Made by a program: the position numbers and the translations under genes. Shown here piece after piece: positions 1,099 through 11,109 of a stretch of 11,109 nucleotides of DNA (position 1 is its first letter; each line of letters starts with the position of its first letter). Source of the DNA: Verrucomicrobiota bacterium (GTDB taxonomy: Bacteria; Verrucomicrobiota; Verrucomicrobiia; Opitutales; Opitutaceae); the NCBI GenBank assembly GCA_003694825.1, contig RFJS01000367.1:1-11109 (forward strand). Direction: 5' to 3'. A model generated the notes under the pieces. It worked only from the letters and a program-made list of their open reading frames with translations, made no database searches and was not told where the DNA came from.

Positions 1099-3048
1099 TC
1101 AATCCGCCTTCTGCAACGACGCCAGCACGCTGAAATCCTCGAGTGTGGTCGTATCGCCCTTCACCTCGCCTCCGGCGGCGATCTCCTTGAGCAAACGTCG
1201 CATGATTTTGCCCGATCGCGTCTTGGGCAGAGCCGCGGCGAAGCGAATCACGTCCGGCCTGGCGATCGCTCCGATCTCGCGCGCCACGTGCTTGCGCAGC
1301 GTCTCCTTGAGCTTCTCGGACGCCTTCACGCCGTCCTTGAGGGTCACAAAGACCACGAGCGACTGCCCCTTGATCTCATCGGGCCTGCCGATTGCCGCGG
1401 CCTCGACCACACTCGGATGGCTCACCAGCGCGCTCTCGACCTCCGCGGTCCCGATCCGATGTCCTGATATATTCAATACATCGTCGATCCGGCCGACGAT
1501 CCAGAAATAGCCGTCCTCATCCTGGCGGCACCCATCACCCGTGAAATAGATCCCCGGGTAGTCCGACCAGTATTGACGCTTGAAACGGTCATCATCCCCC
1601 CAGAGCGTGCGCAGCATCGAGGGCCACGGCTGAGTGATAACCAACTTGCCTCCCGTGTTTCGCGGCACCTCGCGGCCTGTTTCGTCCACCACCTTCGGGA
1701 CGACGCCGAAAAACGGCAGCGTCGCCGACCCCGGCTTCTGCGGAATCGCGCCGGGCAGCGGCGTGATCATGATCGCGCCGGTTTCCGTCTGCCACCAGGT
1801 ATCGACAATCGGACAACGCCCGCCGCCGATCACCTTGTAATACCACATCCACGCTTCGGGATTGATCGGCTCGCCGACGGTCCCGAGCAAGCGCAGGGAC
1901 GAAAGGTCGTGCCGCTTCGGGTGCTCGTCGCCCCACCGCATGAACGCCCGGATCGCAGTCGGCGCGGTATAAAAAACAGTCACGCGGTGCCGGTCGATAA
2001 TCGACCAGAAACGATCGGGCCCGGGATGGTTCGGCGCGCCTTCATACATCAGCGTCGTCGCTCCATTGGACAAAATGCCATAGACGACGTAACTGTGGCC
2101 GGTGATCCAGCCGACATCGGCGGTGCACCAATACGTATCCGTCTCCTTCAGATCGAAAACATACTTCGAGGTGATCGTGGTGCCGAGCAGATAGCCGCCG
2201 CTCGTATGCAACACGCCCTTCGGTTTTCCGGTGCTTCCGCTGGTATAGAGAATAAACAGCGGGTTTTCCGCATCGAATGCCTTCGCCCGGTGCACGTGCG
2301 CCGCCGCCGGCACCACATCGTGCCACCAGATATCCCGATCCTTCTTCATCCGCACCCGACTGCCGGTGCGCCGCAGGACAAGCACTTTCTCGACCGAAGG
2401 CGTTCCCTCGAGCGCCCGATCCACGTTCTCCTTCAGCGGCACCACTTTGCCGCGCCGCCATCCGCCGTCCGCCGTGATGACGAGCCGCGCCTCGCAATCG
2501 TTCACGCGATCCTTGATCGCTTCTGAACTGAAGCCGCCGAAAATCACTGTGTGCACCGCGCCGATACGGGCACATGCGAGCATGGCAATGGCCGCCTCCG
2601 GCACCATGGGCATGTAGATGGCGACGCGATCGCCCTTCCCGAGACCGAATCCTTCCAGCACATTCGCCAGGCGGCACACCTCATGATAAAGCTGCTTGTA
2701 GGTCAGCGTGCGCTCATCGCCACCTTCGCCCTCGAAAATGATCGCCGCCTTATTCTCCCGCGCCGTGCCGAGATGGCGATCGAGACAATTTTCAGCCACA
2801 TTGAGCCGGCCGCCCACGAACCACTTCGCGTGTGGCGCCTTCCACTGCAGAACCTTCCGCCACTTCTTTCGCCACAGAAGCAACTCTTCAGCCTGCTTTG
2901 CCCAGAATTCCTCTGGATTATTGACAGATTGGCGATAGAGCCTACGGTATTTCGCCAAACTTCCGATATGGGCCTGAGCCTGGAATTCGTCCGGGGGGTT
3001 GAACTTGCGATTTTCGCGGGTAACAGAGGTAATATTCTCGCTCGACAC
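1099..3048 (-). CDS. acs: Acetyl-CoA synthetase (AMP-forming)
   Basis: Cytoplasmic enzyme that converts acetate, ATP and CoA to acetyl-CoA, AMP and pyrophosphate through acetyl-AMP. The protein is collinear with E. coli Acs over its length. Seen motifs include NCLDRHL near residue 90, [22 protein letters not shown], the ATP-binding A3 loop [13 protein letters not shown] (268-280), [10 protein letters not shown], the hinge/A8 region VDDVLN-like with SGHRIGTAE, and [11 protein letters not shown] with the catalytic and regulatory lysine at about 614 (E. coli Lys609). No ATG lies near the N-terminus. I chose GTG at 3048 (VSSENITSV...), which gives 649 residues against 652 in E. coli. GTG at 3153 would add 35 residues that look unlike Acs, though a weak purine stretch precedes it. 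The conserved lysine suggests control by Pat/CobB-type acetylation, as known for the family. It is divergent from rho. Confidence 0.96.
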
Positions 3049-3277
3049 GGTTGGATCAGTCTGAAAGACGGTTGTCGTGTTGGGGTGAAAAACGGGACGT
3101 CTTTTTGGGCGAAATTCCGACTCGGTCAATCCCGGAAGTCCCGTCCGTAACACGGAACGTCCGCCGCCCGTGGGGTGCGCGTGACCCTCTATTGAACGGA
3201 CGCCCCGCCGGCAGCGATCCTCCCTGACCGCTGCTCAAATCCATTCGCGGGCCCACCCGCATCGATTTACCTGCAAC
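3049..3277. promoter_or_regulatory. Divergent acs-rho intergenic region
   Basis: These 229 bases must hold the promoters of both acs (minus) and rho (plus), but I cannot point to a convincing -35/-10 pair for either. An inverted repeat pairs ACGGGAC (3092-3098) with GTCCCGT (3138-3144). Inside it, TTCCG pairs with CGGAA (3133-3137), directly abutting the outer 3' arm, which would make a bulged stem. If acs instead starts at GTG 3153, the left half would be coding. The rho leader shows no Shine-Dalgarno. Confidence 0.4.
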
Positions 3278-4411
3278 ATGGAAGACACCACAGCAAACCA
3301 ACCCGAGACCATCCAGGTCGAGGGAATCCTCGAGATCACAAACAACAAGACCGGCACGCTGATCGATCCGGTTCGCGGCGGCAAGGGTCGCCCCACCGAC
3401 CCCTTCGTCCCGCGGGAGCTGATCCGGCGCTTCAAACTCAAGCCCGGCAGCCACATCGTCGCCACCGCGAATCCCGACAAGCGCTTTCCGAATCCGAAAG
3501 TTCGCTACATCGAATCGGTCGACGGGATGGCGGTCGATGAGCGCCGCAAGGTCCTCGATTTCACGCAGCTCACGACGATCACCCCGAACGAACAGATCAT
3601 TCTCGAGTCGAAGCGCGAGCAGCGCATGACCACCCGGATGATGGATCTGTTCTGCCCCATCGGCAAGGGGCAGCGCGGTCTCATCGTCGCGCCGCCTCGC
3701 ACGGGCAAGACCACGCTGCTGCGCGACATCGCCCTCGGGGTCATTGAAAACCACCCCGAGTGCCACGTGATGATGCTCCTCATCGACGAGCGCCCGGAAG
3801 AGGTCACCGACATGCGCCGCAACGTCCCGGCCGAAGTCTGGGCCTCCTCCAATGACGAGGAAATCAAGAACCACGTGCGCGTCGCCGACCTTTGCATCGA
3901 GCGCGTCAAGCGCCTCGTCGAAGCCGGCAAAGACGTCGTCGTTCTCCTCGACTCCATCACCCGGCTCGCCCGTGCGCACAACAACCTGCGCAGCAGCGGG
4001 CGCACCGGCAGCGGCGGCCTCGACGTCCGCGCCCTCGAAAAGCCCCGCCAGCTCTTCGCCGCCGCGCGCAACACCGAGGAGGCCGGCAGCCTCACCATCA
4101 TCGCCTCGGCCCTGATCGAAACCGGAAGCCGCGCCGACGAAATCATTTTCCAGGAGTTCAAGGGCACCGGCAACATGGAGATGGTCCTCGACCGCAAGAT
4201 CGCGGACATGCGCATCTGGCCGGCCATGAACATTGCCGCCTCCGGCACCCGCCGCGAAGAACTGCTCATCGACGCCGACAAGCTCGAGGCCATCCACTTC
4301 TTCCGCCGCGCCCTCGTGTCGCTCAAGGTCGAGGAAGCCGCCGAGACCGCGGTCACCCGCCTGAGCAAGACAAAGACCAACGAGGAATTCCTCAAACTCA
4401 TCTCCCGGTAA
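3278..4411 (+). CDS. rho: Transcription termination factor Rho, short form
   Basis: Hexameric RNA-dependent ATPase/translocase that ends transcription. The ATPase core is clear: Walker A APPRTGKT (138-145), the catalytic-Glu stretch LLIDERPEEVTDM, Walker B VVVLLDSITRLAR with Asp225, the R-loop segment EFKGTGNMEM, and the arginine finger in SGTRREELL (Arg325). At 377 residues it is shorter than E. coli Rho (419) and lacks the N-terminal helical subdomain; the OSB-like RNA-binding domain begins almost at once (VEGILEI, 14-20). In that domain the E. coli motif DGFGFLR is replaced by NKTGTLI, so the positions of Phe62 and Phe64 are Thr25 and Thr27. The core is otherwise complete, so the gene is probably functional. 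ATG at 3278 starts directly before the conserved part, with no visible Shine-Dalgarno and no in-frame extension that looks coding. Such a form may be normal for its lineage. Confidence 0.96.
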   Translation: MEDTTANQPETIQVEGILEITNNKTGTLIDPVRGGKGRPTDPFVPRELIRRFKLKPGSHIVATANPDKRFPNPKVRYIESVDGMAVDERRKVLDFTQLTTITPNEQIILESKREQRMTTRMMDLFCPIGKGQRGLIVAPPRTGKTTLLRDIALGVIENHPECHVMMLLIDERPEEVTDMRRNVPAEVWASSNDEEIKNHVRVADLCIERVKRLVEAGKDVVVLLDSITRLARAHNNLRSSGRTGSGGLDVRALEKPRQLFAAARNTEEAGSLTIIASALIETGSRADEIIFQEFKGTGNMEMVLDRKIADMRIWPAMNIAASGTRREELLIDADKLEAIHFFRRALVSLKVEEAAETAVTRLSKTKTNEEFLKLISR

Positions 4412-4639
4412 GCCTGCGTGATCGTCCTCCCGGAAAAGCCCGATTCCGTTCGCCCAGCGCCGCGCCGCATCCGTCTCACTGGCCGCCTCACCGCCTCCGC
4501 GGCACCCTCTGAACGGGATTCACCTTTTCATGGGAACTTCACGCTTGATCCTCCGGCGGTAAACCGGGAAAACCACCACCTTTTTCCGCTGTCGGGATAG
4601 TCCGGCTTGGTTGTCCATCCCCTGCACAAACAGTCATTT
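4412..4639 (+). other. rho to 4640-gene intergenic spacer
   Basis: These 228 bases hold no convincing gene. A weak hairpin CGGAA/TTCCG (4431-4448) lies 19 bases after the rho stop. A second AT-rich one, GGAAAA (4567-4572) with TTTTCC (4582-4587), lies about 50 bases before the next ATG. No clear promoter is visible, though the gap suggests the next gene has its own. Confidence 0.3.
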
Positions 4640-6397
4640 ATGCAAAGTTTCTCAGCTCAATGCCTCGACATGGCGCGTTCGATGCTTGGCCACAACCTTT
4701 CGGCCATCAACCCTGACGGATCGATCACGCCGGTTGAGGGTGAGGAGCCCCGTTCCGACGAACCAGGACACGCCGCGCTCGCCATCGGCGAATTCTATCG
4801 CGCCACCGGTGAGACCACACTCGACGGAGTCGACCTCGTCGACCTCGCCGCGCGCTGCATCACCGCCCAGGCCTTCAGCGAGCCCGCCGGCGAAAACGGC
4901 CTCGCCTACGCGGCCCTCGCCCTGCTCTCCTTTGGTCCCTCGAAGGAACGCAACGTCGTCTGGGAACGTCTCGTCGACGAGACCCGCCAGCGGCTCGACC
5001 GCCAGCTGCTGCATCGCAGCGACTACGACAACCACTGGCAGGCCTTCAACATCGCCAAGGCCGTCTGCCGCTACTCCCTCGGCCTTTCCAGAAAAGACGA
5101 AACCGGCCGCCTCATCGAGCGCTTCGTCAGCCGCATCAAGGAGACCAGCTCCGCCGGATTTTTCGACGACTGCGACAGCAAGGGCATCGGCGGCAATTTC
5201 GACATCTACGGGCCGATGAGCTTCGTCTTCATCCGGCAGGCTCTCCAGCTCCATGCCAACGCCGGCCTGCGTGAGCGCAAGCTCCCCACGCTGCGGACTT
5301 TCGCCGAGAAATACATCAAGCTGCTGCCCGACCTCGTGCGTCACGACGGTCTCGGCTGGGGCTATGGCCGCTCTGCCGGCGCCTATGGCCAGATGCACTG
5401 CATCTCGCTTCTGCTGCAGAGCTTCCGCGACAACTGGATCGCTCCCGAGCAGCAGGAACGCTATTTCGACATCCTCCGGCGGCTCTTCTACTTCTTCTAC
5501 GTCACCTACCTGGACCAGGAGCACGGCTACCTCGTGATTCGCGACGCCGAGCGGGCCACCGTGCCTCAGCACACTACCCGCATGGCGAATTTCGACGGCG
5601 CCCGCTACCTCTGCCAGTGGTCGCGTCTCGCCAGGCAGATCGACGCCCCGGAAAACCCGAAGCCGCAGCCGGCCCGCACCGCCGGTCGTTACGTCATCTT
5701 CGACAAATCCAACCGCAAAGAGCAGGGCCTCTTCCTCTACCGCGACGCCGAAAGCGGACTGCACATCCAGCTCCCGCTCGTCGGCATGCATGGCCACGCC
5801 ACCGCAGACGGTCTGCCCTTCCCGCATTGCCCGGGCATCTTCGACTGGCCGAGCAATGTCTACCTGCCGATCCTCCTGCCGGAGCTTCAGGTTGGCGAAC
5901 ATCGCTTCATCCCCGCCTTCTACGGCAAGCGCTGCAGCGCGGGACTGGGAGTCCGCAACTCCTTCTTCTTCCGTTACGAACAGCCCGAGTGGATCAATAC
6001 CAACGAGGAGATTGTTCCCGGTCTGGGCACCTGCAAGGTCAGCTGGACATTCTCCGGCAACAAGGTCACCAGCGACTTCATCTACACCGTCAAGAGCCAA
6101 GTGCAGCTCGACCAGTTCCGCTACGTCCTCGCCATCGGGTCGCCACACTCCCAATACCACACCGACAGCTCGCCCATGCTCGGCGAGGCCGGTCTGCGTT
6201 GTGCCGTCGTCAAGGATGACTTCCAGGGCATCTGGACCGAAACCGAGGTCGTGACCAACGATCCGGCCTATCGCTCCAACTACGGCAACATCCACTACCT
6301 GCAGACGCTCATCCGGGATCATCCGCTGATCATGCGTCCGGGAAACACCTACCGCCTCACCGTCACCTTCGAGCCCGACATCTCGATCGTCGGCTGA
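4640..6397 (+). CDS. Protein of unknown function, probable helical toroid plus C-terminal beta domain
   Basis: I do not recognise a named family. The protein has 585 residues, no signal peptide and no membrane segment, so it is probably cytoplasmic. Residues 1-340 look alpha-helical with repeated helix pairs, as in alpha/alpha toroids. Conserved-looking clusters are DYDNHWQAFNIAK, GGNFDIYGPMSF, HDGLGWGYGRSAGAYGQM (about 235-252) and FDGARYLCQW (about 318-327). Residues 345-585 look beta-rich (VIFDKSNRKEQGLFLYRD, HGHATADGLPFPHCPG, and a C-terminus TYRLTVTFEPD). This two-part architecture is typical of polysaccharide lyases and some glycosidases, and the DG...YGRS motif faintly recalls DUF2264-type proteins. 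A carbohydrate-active role is therefore possible but unproven. ATG at 4640 was chosen over an upstream TTG at 4607; neither has a Shine-Dalgarno. It lies 54 bases before hisF, which may mean cotranscription rather than shared function. Confidence 0.85.
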   Translation: MQSFSAQCLDMARSMLGHNLSAINPDGSITPVEGEEPRSDEPGHAALAIGEFYRATGETTLDGVDLVDLAARCITAQAFSEPAGENGLAYAALALLSFGPSKERNVVWERLVDETRQRLDRQLLHRSDYDNHWQAFNIAKAVCRYSLGLSRKDETGRLIERFVSRIKETSSAGFFDDCDSKGIGGNFDIYGPMSFVFIRQALQLHANAGLRERKLPTLRTFAEKYIKLLPDLVRHDGLGWGYGRSAGAYGQMHCISLLLQSFRDNWIAPEQQERYFDILRRLFYFFYVTYLDQEHGYLVIRDAERATVPQHTTRMANFDGARYLCQWSRLARQIDAPENPKPQPARTAGRYVIFDKSNRKEQGLFLYRDAESGLHIQLPLVGMHGHATADGLPFPHCPGIFDWPSNVYLPILLPELQVGEHRFIPAFYGKRCSAGLGVRNSFFFRYEQPEWINTNEEIVPGLGTCKVSWTFSGNKVTSDFIYTVKSQVQLDQFRYVLAIGSPHSQYHTDSSPMLGEAGLRCAVVKDDFQGIWTETEVVTNDPAYRSNYGNIHYLQTLIRDHPLIMRPGNTYRLTVTFEPDISIVG

Positions 6398-7280: not shown

Positions 7281-7910
7281 TCAGCGGGCTGGAGCCGCCG
7301 GTTCGCGAGGTGAATCGGGCTCATCGGGTTCTTCGGCCTGCGCCGCGCCCTGCGTCTCCCCGGCCGCCTCCGGCGCGTCCGACGCCTCCCCGGCCGCACC
7401 TTGCCTCCCGCCACGCGGCTCTCCAAGCAAAACGCCGAGCTTCTCCCGCACACTCACAAAAAACGCTGCATCCATCTCCCCGGCCGGCACCTCGACCACG
7501 CGCTTCGACGATCGATGCTCGTAGAGAATCACATCCGCACCGGGCTTGCGGCCGCGGTTGCGCAACACCCGCTTGCGCTCGAGCATCAACGCCAGGAACT
7601 GCTTCAGCGCCGCATTCTCCTCGACCGGATCATCCGATTCCGCCGTCAAGGAGAGAAACAGCGACTCCGCCGTCAGCTTCAGCTCCTTTTCCGGGTTCTC
7701 CTGCGCCACCGGCGGCTTGTAGCGGCGCACCCACCGGCAAACGACATCGCCCAACGGCTCCGCCCGTCCATCCTCGGACTCCAGCCAGTCCAGCCGCACA
7801 TAATCGCCGGCGGCAACCCGCACCAGGTGGCTCACCACCCGGTCATCCTTTCGGAACTCGACCCCCGAGATGAAACACCGGCCGGACTGTGGCTGTAGAT
7901 GCAGATCCAT
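7281..7910 (-). CDS. Conserved hypothetical protein, PVC-type
   Basis: Function unknown. The 209-residue protein has three visible parts. The N-terminus has a treble-clef-like beginning, GRCFISGVEFRKDDRVVSHLV (Cys12), plus a second Cys at 58 in DVVCRWVRRY. The middle is helical, with an ALKQFLALMLERKRVLRNR motif followed by a beta-like VILYEHRSSKRVVEVP segment (about 100-145). The tail from about 165 is Ala/Glu/Pro-rich and disordered. From memory, short proteins with a Cys-xxx-Gly start and an 'LALMLxRKR' helix recur as hypotheticals in Verrucomicrobia and Planctomycetes. With only two cysteines in this part a complete four-Cys zinc site is not present. ATG at 7910 sits just before the conserved Cys. 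It is divergent from the metallophosphatase (62 bases) and convergent with hisF. No signal peptide. Confidence 0.8.
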   Translation of the reverse strand: MDLHLQPQSGRCFISGVEFRKDDRVVSHLVRVAAGDYVRLDWLESEDGRAEPLGDVVCRWVRRYKPPVAQENPEKELKLTAESLFLSLTAESDDPVEENAALKQFLALMLERKRVLRNRGRKPGADVILYEHRSSKRVVEVPAGEMDAAFFVSVREKLGVLLGEPRGGRQGAAGEASDAPEAAGETQGAAQAEEPDEPDSPREPAAPAR

Positions 7911-7956
7911 TGTTGCAGAAAACGAATTCGCTCGCAGCGAGGAAACCGCGCAACAA
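7910..7956. promoter_or_regulatory. Nested dyad in the 62-base divergent spacer
   Basis: The outer arms TTGTTGC (7910-7916) and GCAACAA (7950-7956) are a perfect inverted repeat. Inside lie the palindrome CGAATTCG (7923-7930) and the near-palindrome CTCGCAGCGAG (7931-7941). This short spacer must contain both promoters for the 7281-7910 and 7973-8632 genes, so the dyad is a candidate operator. The left arm touches the minus-strand start codon. No clear -35/-10 pair is seen. Confidence 0.35.
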
Positions 7957-7972
7957 AACCGTCGAGCGCGAC

Positions 7973-8632
7973 ATGATCAAGGGTCGAGTCATTGCCATTG
8001 GGGACGTCCACGGATGCATCGACGAGCTCCGCGATCTCCTCGACACGCTTGCCCCCGCCGCCGACGACTACGTCCTCTTCCTCGGAGACCTCGTCAACCG
8101 CGGCCCCGACAGCCACGCCGTCATCCAGACCGCCCGCGAGATCGGCGCCCGGGCCCTCCTCGGCAACCACGAACTGCGCCTGCTCCAATATCGAAAGACC
8201 GGCGACAAATCCCGGCTGCGCCCCAACGACTTCGACACGATCCGCCAGCTCACCGATGCCGACTGGCGCTACCTCGAAAACATGGCGCTCCATCACCACC
8301 GGCCCGACCTCGACACCGTCTTCGTCCATGGCGGCTTCATTCCCGGCCGCGATTGGCGGACGCAGCCGGCCGAGGTCGTCACCCGCATCCAGGTGCTCGG
8401 TCCGGACAACAAACCGCTCCGCCGCGGCGAGGCCCCCTACGCCCCGATCTGGGCCGATCTCTGGCGTGGCCCGCCCTTCGTCGTCTTCGGCCACACCCCC
8501 TTCATCGAAGCCTATCGCGCGCCCGCGGCTCTCGGCATCGACACCGGGTGCGTCATGGGCGGCAAACTGACCGCCTTCGTTCTCCCCGAACGCCGCCTCG
8601 TCCAGGTCAAGGCCCGGCGTCGATACGCCTGA
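7973..8632 (+). CDS. Metallophosphatase of the PPP/ApaH-like family
   Basis: Two-metal phosphoesterase of the family that includes ApaH (diadenosine tetraphosphatase) and bacterial PrpA/PrpE-type protein phosphatases. The metal and phosphate motifs appear in order: GDVHGC (10-15), GDLVNRGPDS (38-47), GNHE (64-67), VHGG (118-121) and FGHTP (172-176), followed by IDTGCVMGGKLTAF. The third-last residue of the second motif, usually Asp in PPP enzymes (GDxxDRG) and Ala in ApaH, is Asn42. At 219 residues it is shorter than E. coli ApaH (about 280), closer to the compact PrpE-like type, so substrate (Np4N, capped RNA or phosphoprotein) cannot be assigned. No signal peptide; cytoplasmic. I chose ATG at 7973, right before the conserved strand; GTG at 7889 would run into the divergent gene. 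No strong Shine-Dalgarno. A GC hairpin follows its stop. Confidence 0.92.
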   Translation: MIKGRVIAIGDVHGCIDELRDLLDTLAPAADDYVLFLGDLVNRGPDSHAVIQTAREIGARALLGNHELRLLQYRKTGDKSRLRPNDFDTIRQLTDADWRYLENMALHHHRPDLDTVFVHGGFIPGRDWRTQPAEVVTRIQVLGPDNKPLRRGEAPYAPIWADLWRGPPFVVFGHTPFIEAYRAPAALGIDTGCVMGGKLTAFVLPERRLVQVKARRRYA

Positions 8633-8724: not shown

Positions 8725-10065
8725 ATGGGCCGAAACCCGAACGACAAAGGCGAAATCCTCGACGCCGTCGCCCTGCTCGTCATCGACATGCAGGACGCCT
8801 TCCTCGACGCCATCCCCGATGGCCGCTCCATCACCGAACGCTGTGCCTTCGCCATCGAAGCCGCGCGGCTCTTTGGCATCGACACCATCTTCACCGAGCA
8901 GGTACCGGAAAAGCTGGGACGTACCACCTCCGCGCTGCGCAACCTCGCCCCCAACGCCCGGGTCTTCTCCAAAAACACCTTCCCCGCGCTTGCCGCTCCC
9001 GGCCTGATGGACCACCTCAAGCGCCGCGGCATCTACCACCTGATCATCGTCGGCATCGAGACACCGATCTGCGTCTATCAGACGGCCCTTCAGGCTCAGG
9101 ACGCCGACCTCGATGTCACGATCATCAGCGACGCTGTCGGCGGCCGCCGGAGCGAGGACTGCCGCACGGTCATCGATGCGCTCGCCCGCTCGAGTGCTCA
9201 CGTGCTCCCCGCGGAAGCGATATTCTACAGCATGCTCGGCTCCACCGCGCATCCGCGCTTCCGCGACTTCACCCGGCTCGTCAAACACTACAACGGCCCC
9301 GAGCCTCTCGCCAGCCGTCCCGAGCTGGGCAAGACCCAGCGCGCCGACGAACCCCGCCAACAGACCCCGACCGACGAGACATCCGCCCCGTCCTCCGGCG
9401 AATCCACCAGCGGCAGCTCGCGCCGCCGGCGCCGTCGCGGCCGACGCGGCCGCCGTCAGGAATCGCCCCAGGAACCGGGCACGACTCAAGAGACAGCGAC
9501 GCCGGCCACCACCGACGAGGGCGCCAAAGATGATGACGGCAGGAAGAAGGATCAGACTTCATCCACGCCCAGGACGAAGCGCGAAGAGTCCGAATCCCCG
9601 GAGTCGGCGACACCAGCCGCCGCTGAATCGGCCGAGCCCTCCCCGGTCGCCGCCGTCCCCGAAGATTCCGCCCAAACGGAGGCGCCACAGGAAAAGGACG
9701 CCGCGGCGAGTGACACCCGTGTCGACAAACCGGCCGATCGCGATGAAGCGGCCACGGACGCGCCAGCGCCCGCCACCGAGCCGGCCGAGGCCGCTACCGT
9801 CGAAACCACCGCCGAAACCGTGGAGAAACCGGCGGCCAGGAAAAAGACGGCTCGCAAAAAAACCGCGCGGAAAACCGCCACTCGAAAATCCACCGGCACC
9901 ACCACCGCCACGAAGAAAACCGCGGCAAAGAAGAAATCGACCACCACGCGCAAGCGCACCGCCTCCACCACCACGAAAAAGAAAGCCGGCAAAAGCAAAA
10001 AGGCGGCATCCGCCGCCGGCGACGACTCCAGCGCCGCCACGCCGTCCGAATCGTCTGCCGAGTAA
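8725..10065 (+). CDS. ISOC-type cysteine hydrolase fused to a long disordered basic tail
   Basis: Residues 1-190 are an isochorismatase-like hydrolase. The Asp-Lys-Cys triad is visible: Asp21 in LLVIDMQDAF, Lys83 in VFSKNTFPAL and Cys116 in VGIETPICVYQTAL. The segments TEQVPEKLGRT and STAHPRFRDF match the ISOC1/ISOC2/YcaC side of the family, whose substrates are largely unknown. It lacks the His metal ligands of nicotinamidase. Residues 192-446 are low complexity in three parts: an Arg cluster RRRRRRGRRGRR (233-244), an acidic Pro/Thr/Glu/Ala stretch (245-367), and a Lys/Ala/Thr/Arg segment (about 368-424) like histone H1 tails or AlgP. The tail may bind DNA or RNA (inference). ATG at 8725 was chosen; GTG at 8692 would add 11 plausible residues. 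The open frame upstream of that is the shadow of the phosphatase gene. It ends 12 bases before the exonuclease gene, so the two are very likely cotranscribed. Confidence 0.9.
   Translation: MGRNPNDKGEILDAVALLVIDMQDAFLDAIPDGRSITERCAFAIEAARLFGIDTIFTEQVPEKLGRTTSALRNLAPNARVFSKNTFPALAAPGLMDHLKRRGIYHLIIVGIETPICVYQTALQAQDADLDVTIISDAVGGRRSEDCRTVIDALARSSAHVLPAEAIFYSMLGSTAHPRFRDFTRLVKHYNGPEPLASRPELGKTQRADEPRQQTPTDETSAPSSGESTSGSSRRRRRRGRRGRRQESPQEPGTTQETATPATTDEGAKDDDGRKKDQTSSTPRTKREESESPESATPAAAESAEPSPVAAVPEDSAQTEAPQEKDAAASDTRVDKPADRDEAATDAPAPATEPAEAATVETTAETVEKPAARKKTARKKTARKTATRKSTGTTTATKKTAAKKKSTTTRKRTASTTTKKKAGKSKKAASAAGDDSSAATPSESSAE
9841..9885 (+). repeat. Tandem KKTAR-type coding repeats in the basic tail
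   Basis: Three 15-base units encode KKTAR, KKTAR and KTATR (residues 373-387), with looser K/T/A repeats continuing to about 9996. The first two units use different codons for the same residues (AAG/AAA, ACG/ACC, GCT/GCG, CGC/CGG). This points to selection on the protein rather than recent DNA slippage. The stretch is A-rich compared with the rest of the window, simply because of its lysine codons. Confidence 0.7.
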
Positions 10066-10077
10066 GCCCGACCGCCC

Positions 10078-11109
10078 ATGCCCGTCCGCCTCAACGTCGC
10101 CGAACTGCGCTCCCCCGACCGCCGCGAGAACGAGGAATTCGAGGCACTTCTGCTGCTCAAGCGCTGCACCGAGCGCACCGCCCGCAATGGCAATCCCTTC
10201 TACGTCGCCGAGTTTGGCGACCAGCATGGATCCTTCACCGCGAACGTCTTCGCCGACAGTCCCGCCTGTGAAGCGCTCCTCGCCACCGAACCGGGCTCCG
10301 TCGTGCACATCTCCGGCAAGGTCGAGTCCTATCAGGGCCGTTTTTCGCCGCGCATCAATACGGTGCGCAAGGTCAGCGAGGATGAGCTCCAGCAGCTCGG
10401 CGGCATCGAAAATCTCATCGAAACCCCGCCCGAAGATGGAGCCGCCCTCCGCCGCGAACTCGAAGAGGCCGTCACCCGCATCACCCACGAGCGCCTCCGC
10501 CGCACCGTGGAACTCGCGCTCGAGGAAGTCGGCGACTCTTTCTTCACCGCTCCGGCGGCCGTGAGCATGCACCACGCCTACCGGCACGGCCTCGTCGAAC
10601 ACACCGTGCACATGGTGCGGGCATGCGAGGCGCTCCTGCCGCTGTATCCGGAAGTGCATGCCGATCTCGCCCGCGCCGGCGTGATCGTCCACGACATCGG
10701 CAAGACGATCGAATACACCGATTCACTCGCCCCGCAGAAGACGCGCACCGGCATCCTTCAGGGCCACGTCGTCCTGGGCTACCGCATCGTGCGCAAGGCC
10801 GGCATGAAAGCCCGGCTCGACGCCGACACGCTCGAACGCCTCGAACACATCGTGCTCAGCCACCAGGGCGAACTCGAGTGGGGCGCCGCCGCCATGGCCG
10901 CGACCCCCGAGGCTGTCTTTGTCTCGATGATCGACAACCTCGACGCCCGCATGGGCATGGTCCAGCGGGCCCTGCGCATCGGCAACGACGCCGAATTCTC
11001 CGACTACCTGCCGGGCCTCAAAGCCCCATTGCTGCGCACGCCGCCCGCGATCGCCGCGGCCGAGTCCGCCGAACAGGCCGACCTTCCCCTCGACGACGAC
11101 ACGCTCTGA
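10078..11109 (+). CDS. YhaM-like 3'-5' exonuclease (OB-fold plus HD domain)
   Basis: Predicted metal-dependent 3'-5' exonuclease. YhaM of Bacillus subtilis and its relatives degrade RNA and also single-stranded DNA. Residues 1-105 form the OB-fold nucleic-acid-binding domain (FYVAEFGDQHGSFTANVF, GSVVHISGKVESYQGRFSPRI). Residues 110-160 form a helical linker, and about 160-320 the HD domain: SMHHAYRHGLVEHT (His165, His166, His175), the signature IVHDIGK (His205-Asp206), GHVVLGY (His230), HIVLSHQG (His257, His262) and SMIDNLDARMGM (Asp286, Asp289). The 343-residue length is near that of YhaM (about 314) plus a short acidic tail. The tail holds QADLPL (333-338), which resembles a sliding-clamp-binding motif. 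ATG at 10078 starts 12 bases after the upstream gene, so the pair is probably one transcript. No Shine-Dalgarno is visible. The stop codon is the last three bases of the window. Confidence 0.93.
   Translation: MPVRLNVAELRSPDRRENEEFEALLLLKRCTERTARNGNPFYVAEFGDQHGSFTANVFADSPACEALLATEPGSVVHISGKVESYQGRFSPRINTVRKVSEDELQQLGGIENLIETPPEDGAALRRELEEAVTRITHERLRRTVELALEEVGDSFFTAPAAVSMHHAYRHGLVEHTVHMVRACEALLPLYPEVHADLARAGVIVHDIGKTIEYTDSLAPQKTRTGILQGHVVLGYRIVRKAGMKARLDADTLERLEHIVLSHQGELEWGAAAMAATPEAVFVSMIDNLDARMGMVQRALRIGNDAEFSDYLPGLKAPLLRTPPAIAAAESAEQADLPLDDDTL
11074..11091 (+). other. Candidate sliding-clamp-binding peptide at the exonuclease C-terminus
   Basis: Codons 333-338 read Gln-Ala-Asp-Leu-Pro-Leu, five residues from the C-terminus in a Pro/Ala/acidic tail that looks unstructured. 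It combines features of two known E. coli beta-clamp ligands: QADMF in DNA polymerase III alpha and QLSLPL in Hda. A hexapeptide can arise by chance, so this is a candidate only. Confidence 0.4.

Follow-up and report, generated by a model that had tools for sequence, protein, structure and literature searches.

The window, by which we mean the whole stretch of 11,109 nucleotides analysed here (contig RFJS01000367.1, from an Opitutaceae genome), carries at 8725–10065 on the forward strand a single open frame (446 codons and a stop), in which an isochorismatase-fold cysteine hydrolase runs on into a long charged tail. The features of this gene and of the neighbours discussed below are as follows.

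3278..4411, forward strand: compact Rho (Rho1), 4.3 kb upstream of the hydrolase; elsewhere in the genome is another Rho, which has a long low-complexity region
7889..8632, forward strand: ApaH/ALPH/Pnkp-like metallophosphoesterase, upstream of the hydrolase (PF00149, E 1.1e-19; solved diadenosine tetraphosphatase 2qjc, E 2e-30)
8725..9297, forward strand: isochorismatase-fold (MAR1/YcaC-like) cysteine hydrolase domain, residues 1–191, with Asp21, Lys83 and Cys116
9298..10062, forward strand: predicted disordered C-terminal tail, 255 residues (192–446), from pLDDT and from its position, which is that of the tails of the other tailed proteins
9421..9456, forward strand: Arg/Gly block RRRRRRGRRGRR, residues 233–244, from sequence composition
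9457..9825, forward strand: acidic spacer, residues 245–367, net charge -20 (31 Asp/Glu), from sequence composition
9826..10008, forward strand: Lys/Ala/Thr block, residues 368–428, net charge +25, no Asp/Glu, from composition; HC2-like only below cut-off
10078..11109, forward strand: OB+HD protein, relative of the YhaM 3'-5' exoribonuclease, downstream of the hydrolase (solved YhaM 9h3f, E 8.9e-43, residues 18–310)

The hydrolase gene is separated by 92 bp from that of the metallophosphoesterase and by 12 bp from that of the OB+HD protein, which scores over the cut-off of PF01966 and, with 179.7 bits, under the cut-off of 460 for NF010007. The window also encodes an acetyl-CoA synthetase-like protein of 684 aa (1099–3153, reverse strand; PF00501, PF13193 and PF16177) and, at 4607–6397 between rho and hisF, a DUF2264-like protein scoring 21.6 bits, under the cut-off of 25.

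The hydrolase domain and its tail

The first-pass annotation of this DNA had proposed an intact isochorismatase-fold domain with Asp21, Lys83 and Cys116, and this was borne out by a PF00857 match over residues 16–164 (E 9.6e-29; 101.1 bits against a curated cut-off of 27) and by the three residues themselves, which are unvarying in 48/48 aligned sequences, tailed and tailless. An Asp-Lys-Cys catalytic triad is a feature of the isochorismatase superfamily, whose fold the window protein has, and a Cys-Lys-Asp triad is typical of amidases and related hydrolases. Because the triad does not vary among the tailed and tailless sequences aligned, the suggestion that the hydrolase fold now serves as a mere scaffold is unsupported. 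Sequence comparison and Foldseek both gave MAR1-'ribonuclease'/YcaC-like hydrolases as the nearest solved structures; 2b34, which is named MAR1 ribonuclease, ranked first in two comparisons and third in another, 1x9g and 1xn4 were also found, and the Asp, Lys and Cys of the window protein align with those of 2b34 as well as with 8rl0 and 8rkz. These hydrolases (2b34, 8rkz, 8rl0, 1x9g, 1xn4 and YcaC, 1yac/4wgf) have the same fold and domain length as the window protein; however, their PDB chains comprise 192–220 aa and they therefore lack its 255-aa tail. A nicotinamidase identity was ruled out, as NCBIfam equivalog models scored far under their cut-offs (nicotinamidase/pyrazinamidase, 20.5 against 174; RutB, 16.4 against 377.95; BiuH, 26.4 against 370; YcaC, 28.3 against 310), and the metal-binding DxHxxxH motif of nicotinamidases appears to be absent from the window protein. 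A role in anti-phage defence was also rejected, the protein having no PADLOC match. Judged from its sequence, the window hydrolase is orthologous to a MAR1/YcaC-type cysteine hydrolase conserved in Opitutales and has its active site intact.

In the homologue alignment P0002 starts 11 residues upstream of the window protein, and P0003, P0004 and P0006–P0010 start precisely where the domain alignment does, at residue 1, which favours the ATG at 8725 as the start codon. A frameshift, a chimera or a wrong start was ruled out by the occurrence of tailed homologues, all in one clade, in many other genomes, so that hydrolase and tail are one protein, as first annotated, and not two. The anatomy originally described for the tail, an Arg/Gly cluster, an acidic spacer and a Lys/Ala/Thr segment, agrees both with its composition and with a shuffling test, in which none of 10,000 shuffled tails reached the Arg/Gly run of 12 and none the charge of +25 per 61 residues seen in the Lys/Ala/Thr block. 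The 255 residues had also been called disordered, and in the AlphaFold2 model block means of pLDDT are 94–98 for residues 11–190, 83 for residues 191–200 and 42–60 for residues 201–446, with secondary structure absent beyond residue 203; the values of 42–60 amount to long predicted disorder of the BtRho type. The likeness to histone H1 or AlgP held for composition only: the histone H1-like HC2 model PF07382, whose cut-off is 40 bits, scored 18.5, which rules out a true HC2 member, and a tandem KPAA array of AlgP/PhaF type is absent from the window tail, where a single KPAA is found. When the tail was searched for in the rest of the window's genome (80.6% complete), nothing matched beyond its own locus except one sequence attributable to chance (E 5.3).

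Distribution and origin of the tail

In a first protein search 42 of the 43 proteins recovered were tailed, the window's own included; its filters on length and on words in the record are biased towards such proteins, and its length window omits proteins of about 190 aa. The domain alone gave 653 matches, and many of the best 120 were tailless proteins of 178–204 aa with 49–59% identity; among the listed proteins the number of residues after the domain was bimodal, either 0–15 or at least 53. Within the same GTDB family (Opitutaceae) a hydrolase match was present in 140/200 genomes and none in 60/200, and the 130 loci read (one per genome, each with a match above 120 bits) comprised 26 with a tail (68–255 aa) and 104 without (at most 9 aa after the domain), the 68 residues of L004 being a minimum as its tail is truncated at a contig end. 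The tailed loci span nine genera (g48, nine loci; g20, eight; g33 and g13, two each; g1, g14, g34, g9 and g30, one each), and the four for which two or more tailed loci were examined (g48, g20, g33 and g13) have no tailless locus among the 130. Named sources of tailed proteins are Pelagicoccus (L032, L033) and Congregicoccus parvus (P0010). Outside the family, 28 loci (14 from the order, 14 from the class or phylum) end 0–10 residues past the domain. The locus comparison dropped L001 (which duplicates the window locus) and the distant L088 and L089, and the counting of identical domains once reduced 186 loci to 156 (26 tailed, 130 tailless).

It had been asked at the outset whether close homologues mostly lack the tail. 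The closest are tailed (42/43, with filters that favour such proteins), whereas the family is mostly tailless (104/130), its tailless members lying elsewhere in the tree. Tailless Opitutales orthologues such as L040, L050, L060 and L194 have the same domain (48–53% identity) together with ApaH-like and YhaM-like neighbours but, unlike the window protein, stop at the domain end. Since tailless orthologues are the majority, the tail is not needed for core function; nevertheless, comparison across genomes indicates that its fusion to the hydrolase is a real, stable and clade-specific architecture.

A domain tree of 241 sequences (71 tailed, 170 tailless), rooted on 14 more distant homologues from the phylum, placed 71/71 tailed sequences in one clade (SH-aLRT 85) nested among tailless ones, and required one tailed/tailless state change where shuffled labels need about 61. 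P0044, a protein 34% identical to the query in which kinase-type P-loop domains are fused ahead of the isochorismatase domain, was too distant to serve as outgroup. A thinned, more careful tree of 88 rows (32 tailed, 56 tailless) gave the tailed branch support of 98/88, and of 200 bootstrap trees 96% required a single state change. The 71 tailed rows consist of the window, 24 loci and 46 proteins, near-copies included and some species twice; the trees omitted loci whose match started past residue 25 and proteins sharing more than 95% identity with the query, and of the tailless proteins among the best 120 of the 653 domain-search matches they kept one in six. Because the tailed rows form one clade nested in tailless ones, a single gain of the tail is most likely, and, no loss being seen among the 71 rows, every sampled descendant has kept it. 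The idea that a detached tail gene might lie beside the tailless orthologues was rejected: in 101/114 tailless loci a YhaM match starts less than 150 bp past the hydrolase stop, leaving no space for one, and in the remaining 13/114 the gap between hydrolase and YhaM is 158–993 bp.

The tails of the 71 rows are 53–269 aa long, and every one of them (71/71) contains a basic cluster of at least seven Lys/Arg within some 15 residues, with at least eight in 67/71. A block comparable to RRRRRRGRRGRR, namely RRRRGGARRRRA, occurs in 11/71. Net charge varies, and 13/71 tails, all from close relatives of the window protein, are net negative, so plain polycation binding is not the whole story. Values of dN/dS for the tail were 0.30, 0.52 and 0.53 in the three non-independent pairs that L014, L018 and L021 form, and the remaining 15 pairs were saturated; the estimates are rough because tails diverge fast, tail dN being about 3–8 times domain dN, and they indicate weak purifying selection on the tail.

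Gene neighbourhood and other charged extensions

Among distinct loci whose flank on the side concerned exceeds 1 kb, a phosphatase homologue lies within 1.5 kb upstream of the hydrolase in 92/127 tailless against 4/25 testable tailed loci, and a YhaM homologue within 1.5 kb downstream in 114/128 against 4/15; the window, which is tailed, has both neighbours. In 14 loci from other families of the order, most with only 1.5 kb of flank, the phosphatase was found upstream in ten and a YhaM homologue in none, and the phosphatase pairing therefore looks older than the YhaM pairing. Two tailed loci without the trio (L032 and L035) have a convergent TsaD gene downstream.

Two Rho matches were found in 20/20 surveyed genomes of the family, one resembling the window's compact Rho and one of low-complexity type (Rho2), in which a long low-complexity region precedes the conserved part (20/20 genomes; e.g. 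G000:C209, L282). Rho1 is not compact everywhere, as G074 has up to 179 open-frame residues before the match. A Rho gene lies within 10 kb of the hydrolase in 7/9 surveyed tailless genomes (both Rho genes in three) against 2/11 tailed ones, and five of the nine remaining tailed genomes carry Rho on other contigs. In a Pelagicoccus genome (G157), the second-best match of the genome's own tail was the Rho2 low-complexity region (E 3.8e-7; 73% over 40 aa). The Rho2 region was nonetheless rejected as the source of the tail, and we do not claim common descent, because the similarity is strong only in the low-complexity Lys/Ala part and in this one genome. Across 11 tailed genomes, uncorrected for kinship and with the Rho2 of G000 truncated by a contig end, tail and Rho2 region were correlated in K/A density (Spearman 0.82) and uncorrelated in K/(K+R) (Spearman 0.15).

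Pyruvate phosphate dikinase (PPDK, PF01326) was seen by eye to have a short Lys/Ala-rich N-terminal extension in 17/18 genomes (L249, L292–L308), with tailed and tailless hydrolases alike. The first-pass remark that no reason was known for such a tail was thus too strong: with comparable extensions on PPDK (17/18) and on the second Rho (20/20), the hydrolase tail is not unique, and charged extensions are a habit of these bacteria that extends to nucleic-acid-binding proteins and at least one metabolic enzyme. Ribbon-helix-helix proteins (PF01402) with a long Lys/Ala tail were also observed, in G012 and G157 (L250, L251).

Possible roles of the tail

The explanation that we favour, and to which we give about an even chance, is that the tailed hydrolase is an enzyme tethered to a polyanion, most likely RNA, by a disordered polyampholytic tail that was gained once. 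The folded domain would carry out the chemistry, and the tail, with its one or more dense Arg/Lys blocks, would act as a multivalent electrostatic tether holding the enzyme, probably as an oligomer, on a polyanion that would most likely be RNA or RNA–protein condensates and less likely DNA or polyphosphate; the tail may in addition affect catalysis. The attachment to RNA, nucleoid or ribosomes proposed in the first-pass annotation is thus plausible. A tether is consistent with the single origin and retention of the tail, the basic cluster in 71/71 tails, the tail dN/dS below 1 and the predicted disorder, and is opposed by the tailless majority, the 13/71 net negative tails and the presence of phosphatase and YhaM neighbours in few tailed loci. 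RNA is suggested by genomic context and by the likeness to Rho, namely by the phosphatase and YhaM neighbours of tailless loci, the nearby Rho genes, the resemblance to Rho2 and the folds named MAR1 ribonuclease. However, the RNA-specific reading is weakened because PPDK, a metabolic enzyme, has a Lys/Ala-rich extension even in genomes with a tailless hydrolase; the lack of correlation with Rho2 in K/(K+R) and the negative RNase result for CrcA (PMC10213629) also count against it.

Known systems offer partial parallels. According to the commentary PMC10284900, Krypotou et al. demonstrated phase separation for a Rho that contains an intrinsically disordered region. Like the window protein, this Rho joins a conserved protein to a lineage-specific, compositionally biased disordered region, but the region precedes the RNA-binding domain, whereas the hydrolase tail is C-terminal and its disorder predicted. 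CrcA (PA1677) of P. aeruginosa, an isochorismatase-like protein of RNA-based regulation, is dimeric in crystals and proposed to act through Crc binding, and the authors of that study looked for RNase activity and detected none (PMC10213629). With a mass of about 22 kDa this possible relative has no tail comparable to that of the window protein. In the literature searched (one library) we found no description of an isochorismatase with a comparable tail; enzyme fold and tail type are known and their lasting combination is new.

A tail that is instead an AlgP/PhaF-like, histone-H1-like tether to DNA and/or polyphosphate granules, and not to RNA, is possible, if rather unlikely. To our knowledge AlgP and PhaF have neither an Arg/Gly block nor an enzyme domain, and the Arg/Gly blocks of the window protein's closest relatives are un-AlgP-like; the HC2 model stays under its cut-off, and the neighbours are RNA and nucleotide genes. 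PPDK, a phosphate-handling enzyme with a Lys/Ala-rich start in 17/18 genomes, fits such a tether. So do the Lys/Ala-rich disordered tails of AlgP and PhaF, described as DNA-binding and as organising polyP/PHA granules (PMC9239181), and the polyphosphate-binding lysine-rich regions described in PMC12345225, among them the basic one of RNase R together with its S1 domain. AlgP and PhaF resemble the window protein in joining another domain to a long Lys/Ala-rich tail that is disordered and presumed to be a polyanion tether, but their tails have tandem KPAA repeats where the window tail has one KPAA and no array.

We consider it improbable that the tail has no partner of its own and arose by near-neutral expansion of low-complexity sequence where the C-terminus tolerated it. 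The wide variation in tail sequence and length (53–269 aa), a tail dN some 3–8 times that of the domain and the charged low-complexity extensions on several proteins in these genomes are what such an expansion would leave, but from one origin there are no losses among 71 tailed rows, the basic cluster persists in 71/71, dN/dS is below 1 and g48, g20, g33 and g13 have no tailless locus among the 130.

Highly improbable in our view, though of interest if true, since the isochorismatase fold would then have an RNA-linked activity that is new for it, is that ApaH-like phosphatase, hydrolase and YhaM-like exoribonuclease form an Opitutaceae unit for RNA-end processing, in one lineage of which the hydrolase gained a tail targeting it to RNA or condensates. 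Caps or ends would be removed, the cysteine hydrolase would act on an amide or ester attached to RNA or derived from it, and 3'-5' decay would follow; a hydrolase with its own targeting tail would no longer need its operon neighbours, and most testable tailed loci indeed lack the linkage. As for a true MAR1-type ribonuclease whose tail raises substrate affinity, which we think the least probable, its closest solved relative by sequence and Foldseek (2b34) is so named, as are 1x9g and 1xn4, and a YhaM-like exoribonuclease gene adjoins, but the Cys-Lys-Asp triad is that of amidases and related hydrolases. Furthermore, in PMC10213629 the MAR1 name is traced to one biochemical study (Alfonzo et al. 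1998), and RNase activity was not found in the isochorismatase-like CrcA.

Whatever polyanion the favoured tether would engage, the tailed hydrolase amounts to a clean experiment of nature: within a single enzyme family a tail was gained once, related genera supply sister orthologues that lack it, and the 71 tailed rows show no loss. Because orthologues exist with and without the tail, the role of charged disordered tails on bacterial enzymes becomes testable, and the ApaH-like and YhaM-like neighbourhood, often with Rho nearby, is a lead on the substrate of MAR1-type hydrolases.
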